Positions 3,521 through 34,838 of a DNA stretch of 64,000 nucleotides are shown here, in pieces. The notes beneath the pieces are model-generated. The model worked only from the letters and a program-made list of their open reading frames with translations, did not search any database and was not told the DNA's origin. This DNA comes from an uncultured Roseobacter sp. GTDB lineage: Bacteria > Pseudomonadota > Alphaproteobacteria > Rhodobacterales > Rhodobacteraceae. Within the stretch, counting starts at the first letter, position 1. Each line of letters opens with the position of its first letter. The DNA is taken from contig NZ_CANLYL010000007.1 in the NCBI RefSeq assembly GCF_947495275.1, forward strand, positions 124,001 to 188,000. The letters run 5' to 3'. The position numbers and the translations under genes are program-made.

Positions 3521-5173
3521 TCAAATCGGCGTATCGGGCTCTTCAGGTTGCCGGAAAACCCATGCCGATCCATTTTCTGAGGTCTTCAGTGTCTGGTTCC
3601 CCATCAGGATGTTATGTGCCCCACCCAGCACCCCGAAATGTCGAACCCCGCTGGCGTAGGACGTGAAAACCCGCACGCCACCAGCATTGGCATTCAAACC
3701 CACAACTTGCGCATCGCTGTCTGCGGTGATCTCGCATCGGTCCACCAGCAACTGCGAACAACCCTCTCCTGTAGAGGTCACACCTCGGTCACCAGGACGC
3801 GAGAAAGCGCAGTCCTTGAGTTGAAAGGCCTGCCCGGAGGCCGACAGCATGATGCCACTGGCCACGTTGTTGCAGATCAGTTCGATGTCCTGAAGAGCGA
3901 GGCCACTGAGTTTCTCAATACCGCTGAAATCCAGCAGATATTTGAACCGGGTAAATGAAAATTCCCGGGGTGTGTCCGACGCTTCCAAAGGTGCGCTGAG
4001 CGCTATCCTATGCCGCGCTGGATCGACTGCACGGACATAGATTTCCGGGCCAACACCCTGCGCCTGAACCAACGCACCGACCGGCACGTCAATAATCTCG
4101 CCTGCGGCCTCCAGGATATGTTGATCTTTCTTGGAAACGGTTGCCGTGCAGCTGACACTCTTACTGGCCCACGCCTGTGAGCCCAGGGCTTCGATACGGC
4201 CGTTTCGCAAGACGCGCCGCCGCACCGGGCGATTGCAATCCGACTGTGCAGCCCGCAATACCATTGGCTCAGCAAGGCTGACCAAATGACCACACAGGTC
4301 GAAGCTTTTTTGATCATCTGAATTCAGAAGCGCCTGAAACCCTTTGCGAAACGCAATATCGGCACGGCCAAACGCATCAATATAGCTAGGCAGGTCAAAG
4401 TTCCTGCGCAGCGTCAAGACAGCCTCCTCAGGCATCGACACCACGCCTTCAAAGCGGACGTCGGACGCCAGCGTCAGATTTTTGGAAAGGAGATATGTGC
4501 CTTGGCTGACAAGCAGCTGTCGACCTCGTGCCGCGGCATCAGCCGCCCTGAAAGCTGCGGTGTCATCGGTGACGCCATCTCCACGGGCGCCGTAGTCGCG
4601 AACGTCAACCATGGCAATGAGATCACGCAAAAAGAAACTCGTTACATCTTCGATGATCAGATCATCAACACGAACACGCCCGCCAACCGGACCGGTAAGG
4701 TCTATGCCGAAATGACCATATAAAGCGTCGGCACCCCAAACCATGTCCACGCCGGGCCGCGCCCCTGCGCCAACGATGGCGGAAACTTCCACCACGGTGC
4801 CCGGTTTCATGACGGTCACTGCGGGTCCTGTTGTGACAACACCGGCAATCGGTGCGCCCCCGGCGCCACCGGCGAAGCCGGCGATACGTACCGATGGCAG
4901 CGGCCCGTCCATAACCTTGATGCGCGCGGTGATGCGCAAGTAGCAGCCCGGCAACAAGGGGATTTCCCCCATATACCTGATCTTCTGTGTTTTTTCGACT
5001 TTGCGAAGCTCAAGACATACGCCAAATTCTGCATCACTGACCAGTTGTGCGATGTCCGCTGCGTCAGCGTATGTGGCCGTCCCGGGCGTGCCATCTTCGC
5101 TGGAATAGACATCCAGCGCCCGCGCGAAGGCGATCGGCATCAGATGCACGCCGTCAGTAATCACCTTGTTCAT
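3521..5173 (-). CDS. Pectate-lyase-superfamily (right-handed beta-helix) protein, probably C-truncated
   Basis: A 550-aa protein. The first 190 residues are a jelly-roll-like part (RYMGEIPLLPGCYLRITARI); then VDVRDYGARGDGVTDDTAAF marks the start of a pectate_lyase_3 / GH28-related beta-helix. From memory, Roseobacter homologues with this same architecture run to about 750 aa. Here the frame ends just after HFGVLGGAHNILMGN with an unrelated tail, and only 52 bases separate the stop from the next gene, so the last quarter appears lost. Role unknown; such proteins occur in surface polysaccharide contexts. It may be a decaying gene. Confidence 0.7.
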   Translation of the reverse strand: MNKVITDGVHLMPIAFARALDVYSSEDGTPGTATYADAADIAQLVSDAEFGVCLELRKVEKTQKIRYMGEIPLLPGCYLRITARIKVMDGPLPSVRIAGFAGGAGGAPIAGVVTTGPAVTVMKPGTVVEVSAIVGAGARPGVDMVWGADALYGHFGIDLTGPVGGRVRVDDLIIEDVTSFFLRDLIAMVDVRDYGARGDGVTDDTAAFRAADAAARGRQLLVSQGTYLLSKNLTLASDVRFEGVVSMPEEAVLTLRRNFDLPSYIDAFGRADIAFRKGFQALLNSDDQKSFDLCGHLVSLAEPMVLRAAQSDCNRPVRRRVLRNGRIEALGSQAWASKSVSCTATVSKKDQHILEAAGEIIDVPVGALVQAQGVGPEIYVRAVDPARHRIALSAPLEASDTPREFSFTRFKYLLDFSGIEKLSGLALQDIELICNNVASGIMLSASGQAFQLKDCAFSRPGDRGVTSTGEGCSQLLVDRCEITADSDAQVVGLNANAGGVRVFTSYASGVRHFGVLGGAHNILMGNQTLKTSENGSAWVFRQPEEPDTPI

Positions 5174-33480: not shown

Positions 33481-33501
33481 CGAAGATATCTCGCACTGAT
33501 G

Positions 33502-33530
33502 AAACGGGCGCTATGGTGCCCGTTTTTTGT
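33502..33530 (+). terminator. Terminator of cspA copy 2
   Basis: Stem AAACGGGC / GCCCGTTT with an eight-base loop, continued as six T. Confidence 0.88.
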
Positions 33531-33580: not shown

Positions 33581-34198
33581 TCAAGGCCCGTCCCAATCGA
33601 CGTTCGTTGCCGGGCTGACCTGCAAGCGCCCGTCCGGCCAGGGTTTCAGTAGCGGCAAGACTTCTTCTTCGGAGCCGTTGAACCACTTTGAAACATCGCC
33701 CGGCTCCAAAATCACACCCATACGGTGATGGACATCCGCCACATCCGCAGAAGGCGCGCAGGTCAGAGTCGCCACTTGATCCACCTGCACGCCGCCCGGC
33801 CCCGACCAACGGTCCGTGATCGCGGCGAAGAGCAGAAATCCACCTGATTTCGGGGTGATCGACCAGGCGGTTTTGCGGCGTTTTTCACCGGTCCATTCGT
33901 ACCAGCCGTTCATCGGGACCACAGCGCGCCCGGTGCCAAGATAGGCAGATTTGTCGAACACGGTTTCGCTACGCGCATTGACCAGCGTCTCCATCACCGG
34001 ACGGCCACGGGCATTGACCCGCCCGACCGGGATGATCCCCCAGCGCATGCGGCTCAGCCCCTTTTCGGTCAGAACCACAATTTCCTGCCCGGGTGCCACG
34101 TTCTGGCGTGGCGCTTCATCCGCAACCACACAGGGATCACATCCCAGCGCCGCCCCCAATTCGGCCATCGGCGTGGTCAGGAAAAACCGGCCCGGCAC
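33581..34198 (-). CDS. SRAP (YedK/HMCES) family protein with Pro2 instead of Cys2
   Basis: SRAP proteins shield abasic sites by linking them to Cys2, exposed after Met removal. This 205-aa member keeps the Asn (VNARSET, residue 74), Glu (GWYEW, 101) and His (HHRMGVIL, 157) of the active site and the GRF that follows residue 2, but reads Met-Pro-Gly-Arg-Phe: catalytic Cys is Pro. The start is firm: GTG with AGGAG seven bases before it, overlapping no earlier start. Met before Pro is normally removed, leaving an N-terminal proline, as used by Fpg/MutM glycosylases on abasic sites. Cotranscribed after the esterase gene (four-base gap). Confidence 0.9.
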   Translation of the reverse strand: MPGRFFLTTPMAELGAALGCDPCVVADEAPRQNVAPGQEIVVLTEKGLSRMRWGIIPVGRVNARGRPVMETLVNARSETVFDKSAYLGTGRAVVPMNGWYEWTGEKRRKTAWSITPKSGGFLLFAAITDRWSGPGGVQVDQVATLTCAPSADVADVHHRMGVILEPGDVSKWFNGSEEEVLPLLKPWPDGRLQVSPATNVDWDGP

Positions 34199-34202
34199 CG
34201 CG

Positions 34203-34838
34203 TTACTCCTGCGCCCGGTCGATCAGTTCCAGCACGTAAGGTCCCAGAGCCGCGACGATCTGTACGACACCTTCCGCATTGGGGTGGATGCCATCGGGCT
34301 GCATGAAGGCGCGCACCGATGCGGGATCACCCCCCGCCACGTCCAGCCCTTCGAAAAAACTCGGCGCGTGCAAGGCGCTGAATTCCTCGGCCAGCGCGGG
34401 ATACATCCCGTCGAACGCCGCCTTGTATTCCGGGCCGTAGTTGCCCGGCGCCTGCATGCCAACCAGCAAAACCTCTACATCTGCCGCCGCAGCCGCCTGC
34501 ATGATCCCTTCGAGGTTGGCGCGGCTGACGTCCGGTGCGATGCCACGCAAAAGATCGTTGCCCCCCAGCGTCACGATCATCGCATCCACTTCCGGTGTCA
34601 GCGTCCAGGCCGCGCGGCTCAACCCGCCCGCCGTGGTATCCCCCGACACACCCGCATTGATCAGCCGCACCTGCGCGCCCTTTGCGCCCAGCCAATCCTG
34701 CAACTGCGGCACGAATCCCTGCTCCGCCACCAGCCCGTAGCCCTGCGTCAGACTGTCCCCGAGGGCGGCAATCACAACCTCATCGGCTGCCGCCGCCCAG
34801 GGCCAAATGCCTGCAATGCAAACCAAAACCTTGTGCAT
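34203..34838 (-). CDS. tesA: SGNH arylesterase / lysophospholipase (TesA-like)
   Basis: A 211-aa periplasmic esterase with a short signal peptide (VLVCIAGIWPWAAAA). SGNH blocks: GDSLTQGYG with the nucleophilic Ser, AGVSGDTTAGG with Gly, GGNDLLRG with Asn, and the Asp-His pair in MQPDGIHPNAEGV. Divergent from the ABC/FtsX pair with only 52 bases between starts, an arrangement often seen for this esterase in Proteobacteria. Confidence 0.93.
   Translation of the reverse strand: MHKVLVCIAGIWPWAAAADEVVIAALGDSLTQGYGLVAEQGFVPQLQDWLGAKGAQVRLINAGVSGDTTAGGLSRAAWTLTPEVDAMIVTLGGNDLLRGIAPDVSRANLEGIMQAAAAADVEVLLVGMQAPGNYGPEYKAAFDGMYPALAEEFSALHAPSFFEGLDVAGGDPASVRAFMQPDGIHPNAEGVVQIVAALGPYVLELIDRAQE

Follow-up and report, generated by a model that had tools for sequence, protein, structure and literature searches.

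The SRAP family includes YedK of E. coli and human HMCES, and Cys2 is the residue by which both crosslink abasic DNA; in the available text of PMC3765255 this cysteine is called absolutely conserved, and its place is given as residue 2 in every case. According to the accessible parts of PMC9436759, the N-terminal amine of YedK attacks C1' while Glu105 and His160 open the ring; the title of that paper also reports reversibility of the normal crosslink. The same parts report that the YedK C2A mutant, from which the thiol is gone, gives a trapped Schiff base through its N-terminal amine together with lyase products and no stable crosslink, and that C2A E105Q is 25-fold slower as a lyase. An N-terminal Pro is found in the Fpg/Nei/Nei2 glycosylase-lyases, and in the accessible sections of PMC11323726 Nei2 is an AP lyase on single-stranded DNA in dependence on that Pro, with P2C and P2A inactive and Lys51 required too.

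The gene described here is located in a 64-kb stretch of DNA from an uncultured Roseobacter sp. (the window) and encodes an SRAP protein with Pro as the second residue (Table 1). It begins with GTG-CCG-GGC-CGG (M-P-G-R) and AGGAG is found 7 bases before the GTG, in agreement with the earlier note, which had described a GTG-started Met-Pro-Gly-Arg protein with a good ribosome site and had assigned it to SRAP. The assignment is borne out by Pfam, where the 205-aa reading frame matches SRAP (PF02586) over residues 1-197 with 136 bits against a cut-off of 27.1 and matches no other family, and by an AlphaFold model that resembles YedK and HMCES; no NCBIfam model scored above its cut-off for this protein. 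The same genome has another SRAP gene (L001, contig C11), the product of which starts with MCGR and so carries Cys2.

Table 1. Features of the Pro2-SRAP locus, in window coordinates.
Feature	Position	Strand	Basis and remarks
Pro2-SRAP gene	33581..34198	-	205 aa, GTG start, stop included; ORF list, Pfam and clade alignments
Pro2 codon (CCG), in place of the catalytic Cys2 codon	34193..34195	-	Pro in 128/128 aligned clade members, that of the window included
Ribosome-binding site AGGAG, within the end of the esterase gene	34206..34210	-	Read from the sequence
GRxNARGRPV loop codons, residues 59-68 (clade signature; YedK W67-W68 region)	33995..34024	-	Clade alignment
Asn74 codon (YedK Asn75)	33977..33979	-	128/128 in alignment
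Glu101 codon (YedK Glu105)	33896..33898	-	128/128 in alignment
His157 codon (YedK His160)	33728..33730	-	128/128 in alignment
GDSL esterase gene	34203..34838	-	Pfam PF13472, 88.4 bits; ATG at 34838 is the chosen start
Terminator-like hairpin between the convergent cold-shock and SRAP genes	33501..33526	+	Consensus match only; 1 against a shuffle mean of 1.3

When 120 Rhodobacteraceae genomes (the window's family) were surveyed with the Pfam model, 97 proved to have SRAP, and ten genomes beside that of the window encode a second SRAP copy starting with M/V-P-G-R and showing 57-67% identity to the window protein. A clade HMM built from these 11 proteins gave 69 matches of at least 242 bits, in 69 genomes with 28 genus codes, in a survey of the order (341 genomes, every genome listed being coded as the window's family, with at most nine candidates scored per genome and extra copies possibly missed). 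The scores are bimodal with nothing between 242 and 147 bits, which excludes a chance explanation. A survey of the class (387 genomes) found matches above 200 bits in four of the six genomes listed for the window's family, against no genome among the 381 others, and among the genomes surveyed the Pro2 clade is confined to this family. Carriers named among the best 80 of 309 relatives include Roseobacter, Sulfitobacter, Ruegeria, Shimia and Tateyamaria. Presence is patchy, in 69 of the 341 genomes of the order survey and four of the eight listed genomes of the window's own genus, and losses or transfers have therefore occurred. At least two SRAP matches are present in 62 of the 69 carriers, the second being mostly known by profile match alone; its start was read as MCGR in five (G000, G050, G066, G072 and G085), and the remaining seven list the Pro2 copy only.

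A mobile or phage origin was considered and set aside, as no clade member was found in viral contigs (32 loci, best segment 35% identity, MCGR in the 30 of them that were read), in 1472 plasmid records (all below 60% identity, best listed 34%) or in 41 phage records (best listed 32%). The gapped pattern MPGR..N[IV]xP..WG matched 8 of 398 genomes of the phylum, five of them with Pro2 SRAPs of the window's family and three without SRAP at that place, and 67 viral stretches, none with SRAP in the sequence examined. This pattern is blind to GTG starts and to short forms, missed the window's own copy and had no Cys control pattern beside it, and given these limits rare Pro2 SRAPs may exist outside the window's family. 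A literature search outside preprints and most subscription journals listed no paper that describes an SRAP with Pro2.

All 130 distinct clade ORFs above 200 bits have Pro at the residue-2 position; 126 were labelled PGR by script, L179 (MPGQ), L090 and L199 were read by eye, and L190 is MPGR in its first piece. A misread start of the window gene, or an alternative one upstream, appears unlikely, since in 101 of 129 clade members the stretch between the last in-frame stop (or the edge of the available sequence) and the start used here contains no ATG, GTG or TTG; for the other 28 the sequence alone would allow a longer protein. In an alignment of 128 clade members, which leaves out L190 and L080 and includes YedK and canonical relatives, Pro2, Asn74, Arg76, Glu101 and His157 are each present in 128 of 128. 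Asn74, Glu101 and His157, which the earlier note had already picked out in the window protein, align with YedK N75, E105 and H160. The two refuting conditions of that note that concern sequence, Pro2 not conserved in close relatives and Asn, Glu and His lost in them, do not apply, as Pro2 and these residues stay together in close and distant clade members alike. R4 is kept in 127 rows, and R4, R76, T146 and R159, aligned with YedK R4, R77, T149 and R162, in 127-128 of the 128. The 49 Cys rows of the same alignment were picked by their CGR start, and their 49/49 Cys2 is by construction. All four Pro codons are used for Pro2 (CCG 88, CCC 33, CCA 6 and CCT 2; n=129), and a local mutation or sequencing error as its source is rejected by the 128 rows that carry it. 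Between the window copy and six Roseobacter copies dN/dS is 0.11-0.15, a rough value as dS is 1.2-1.7 and near saturation; purifying selection acts on the gene.

Some copies depart from this pattern. L080, one of the 126 PGR ORFs, has AGG at the place of the start codon near 4998-5000 (MAG), which is an error or points to another start, and L190 (genome G144) has an in-frame stop about 40 codons in, from recent loss or sequencing error, with Pro2 and the remaining frame looking normal. In L169, L173, L175, L183, L188, L189, L124, L128, L129 and L203 the protein is shorter, at 193 aa, about 12 residues that follow the N-terminal strand being absent, and Pro2 is kept.

Compared with the canonical rows, the clade has G59-R60 at the place of YedK W67-W68, and in addition an NARGRPV loop. 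The conservation of this stretch is nearly complete (n=128: G59 125, R60 128, N62 126, A63 127, R64 128, G65 128, R66 128, P67 127 and V68 128). Gly37 and Trp99 of the clade are mostly Thr and Phe in the Cys rows, and are not peculiar to the clade because YedK has Gly41 and Trp103 there.

Trees were built with residues 1-2 removed, the first with 25 of the 70 dereplicated Pro2 rows and the second with 18. All Pro2 rows given fall in one branch, with support of 100 in the 25-row tree and 100/99 in the 18-row tree, and one Cys/Pro change suffices in both. The sister of this branch may be the Cys clade of the window's family, which takes that place in the 25-row tree (support 93) but not in the 18-row tree, where the branching is unresolved. 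L201b, a divergent Pro2 copy of genome G295, joins the Pro clade with support of 97 and 99/94 respectively; it has G59-R60 without NARGRPV, indicating that the exchange to Pro may be older than the loop. The reading frame of L201b continues upstream and offers a possible GTG start 34 codons before the assumed one, which therefore rests on the alignment. In genome G295 a distance of about 2 kb lies between the two Pro2 SRAP genes (L201:3274-3861 and L201:5925-6530); of all Pro2 SRAPs seen, the second diverges most and branches at the base of the clade.

Outside the clade, in counts not filtered by start, Cys2 is present in 42 of 43 distinct SRAPs (33 MCGR, 7 MCNL, 1 VCNL and 1 MCHL), the exception being L201b with Pro, and in all 26 further loci (L204-L229); another set of 30 loci contains 28 with Cys2, one clade member and L201b again. 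In the MCNL group of the window's family (L044-L046 and L048-L052, one of them VCNL) Gly3-Arg4 is replaced and Cys2 kept, and the eight rows form a branch of their own in the 25-row tree. The other SRAP of the window genome, L001 (MCGRLVGG..), is on a very long branch in that tree and is unlike the family's usual MCGRFAITLP copy.

The AlphaFold model of the window protein, made with 45 clade sequences, has a pLDDT of 89.3 and a pTM of 0.88, and predicts an SRAP fold. A Foldseek search with this model gave 21 PDB chains at E <=0.001, every one of them from an SRAP protein; they include YedK in complex with abasic-site ssDNA (6kbz, TMq 0.71 and 0.73), HMCES-DNA (6oov, 0.78 and 0.79) and the Schiff-base complex of YedK C2A with DNA (8d2m, 0.73 and 0.72). 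No Fpg/Nei chain is among these 21, Pfam likewise gives SRAP only, and the window protein is thus placed outside Fpg/Nei by both profile and fold. By profile, fold and the catalytic Asn, Glu and His it is an SRAP protein, and of the four catalytic residues named it lacks Cys2 alone. The Pro2 clade is a real and deeply conserved exception to the Cys2 rule of the SRAP family, and its function we infer from the comparisons that follow.

The GDSL esterase gene ends 4 bases upstream of the SRAP start on the same strand, which makes cotranscription plausible. Of 129 clade loci, 106 have an upstream same-strand esterase match, 112 an ABC gene that lies upstream on the opposite strand and 100 a convergent cold-shock gene downstream; the absence of known repair genes noticed earlier agrees with these neighbours. 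Eighteen of the 23 esterase-less loci were viewed, and in the nine where SRAP and its neighbours were displayed the surroundings are varied (ParA-like ATPase, Rid-like, NadD-like; by eye), with no shared repair gene seen near SRAP. In four loci without the esterase (L038, L110, L130 and L182) a ParA-like ATPase with a Walker motif, judged by eye, is found downstream on the same strand, directly so in L038, L130 and L182. The LexA-type box GAACN7GAAC, the single motif of this kind scanned, is absent from the 64-kb window. The window genome holds an Fpg-family gene.

We consider it about an even chance that the protein represents a second SRAP paralogue, which some members of the window's family carry, with an N-terminal Pro that performs Schiff-base lyase or hydrolysis chemistry on abasic DNA. 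Removal of Met1 would expose the Pro, whose secondary amine would attack the abasic site, once its ring is open, and form an iminium (Schiff-base) link; Glu101 and His157 should open the ring and transfer protons in the manner of YedK. As there is no thiol, a thiazolidine of the YedK/HMCES type could not close, and the link should therefore be resolved by beta-elimination, with strand cleavage and turnover, or by hydrolysis. Met removal, DNA binding and lyase turnover are presumed for this protein. Since YedK C2A behaves as an AP lyase the chemistry is credible, and its Schiff base and cleavage make it most likely that a Pro2 protein of natural origin works as an abasic-site lyase or binds transiently through a Schiff base. 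The lyase is favoured by the invariance of Pro2, N74, R76, E101 and H157, the four Pro codons, the dN/dS values, the single Cys/Pro change, the match to 8d2m and the example of Nei2, in which an N-terminal Pro can drive an AP lyase, and the second SRAP match in most carriers fits a division of labour.

The swap of crosslinking for lyase chemistry proposed in the earlier note is accordingly supported in part, by its residues and the C2A precedent, while no repair-gene neighbours seen, no LexA-type box in the window and the changed loop speak against it. Doubt comes also from the seven carriers that list no other SRAP, and from the Fpg-family gene, as the genome has no obvious need for another lyase. 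The inactivity of Nei2 P2C and P2A, together with its need for Lys51, indicates that an N-terminal Pro alone is insufficient. The wider proposal, that a crosslinking SRAP was duplicated in the window's family and one copy became an abasic-site lyase that turns over with an N-terminal Pro and came to the Fpg/Nei nucleophile by its own route on a fold unrelated to theirs, falls just short of an even chance. In our ranking the lyase should come first, a reversible shield second and a new substrate third.

As a reversible shield the protein would protect abasic ssDNA by a short-lived iminium or non-covalently, with hydrolytic release and little cleavage. We regard this as unlikely, even though the ring-opening residues are all retained and the rate constants given for YedK C2A in the accessible parts of PMC9436759, 1.7 for Schiff-base trapping and 0.05 for the lyase, indicate that adduct formation can be far quicker than cleavage of the adduct. 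Beside a second SRAP, a non-locking copy would also make sense. However, in the accessible sections of PMC11323726 the N-terminal Pro adduct of Nei2 proceeds to elimination, and there is no sign here that elimination is blocked.

It is likewise improbable, and third in order, that the protein has left abasic sites and uses its N-terminal Pro as nucleophile or general base on a different aldehyde, a different nucleic acid or a protein. The replacement of the YedK W67-W68 region by the clade-specific and nearly invariant loop means that the ligand may differ, and from the alignment the loss of these tryptophans may reflect a changed substrate; the frequent esterase linkage and the lack of a visible repair context point the same way. 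Against this, the equivalents of YedK R4, R77, T149 and R162 are kept and the predicted fold matches DNA-bound SRAP structures. A degenerate, non-catalytic paralogue retained as a DNA-binding or structural protein is very improbable, for although the family nucleophile is lost, presence is patchy and L190 has its in-frame stop, the gene is under purifying selection, Asn, Glu and His are fully retained, and one would not expect every aligned member of a pseudo-enzyme group to keep Pro2.

A natural branch with invariant Pro2 breaks the Cys2 rule and uncouples the Schiff-base half of the mechanism from its thiazolidine half, in many bacteria of one mostly marine family. Pro2 in place of the linking Cys suggests that damaged DNA is cut or briefly held, not stuck to; if the protein is a lyase, N-terminal-Pro chemistry for abasic sites was invented independently, by a route from crosslinker to turnover enzyme. 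With YedK and HMCES the window protein shares the SRAP profile, the predicted fold (TMq 0.71-0.79 to the DNA-bound entries), the Asn/Glu/His site and the Arg and Thr equivalents, and differs from them in Pro2, which makes the thiazolidine crosslink impossible, and in the G-R and NARGRPV loop. With YedK C2A it shares the scaffold and an N-terminal amine without a thiol, but that mutant is man-made with the primary amine of Ala, whereas the clade has a natural, clade-wide Pro with a secondary amine. With Fpg, Nei and Nei2 it would share an N-terminal Pro after Met removal and the Schiff base with abasic DNA, which is in print for Nei2 (PMC11323726, accessible sections) and proposed here for the window protein; those enzymes have another fold, and no glycosylase function is claimed for the Pro2-SRAP.
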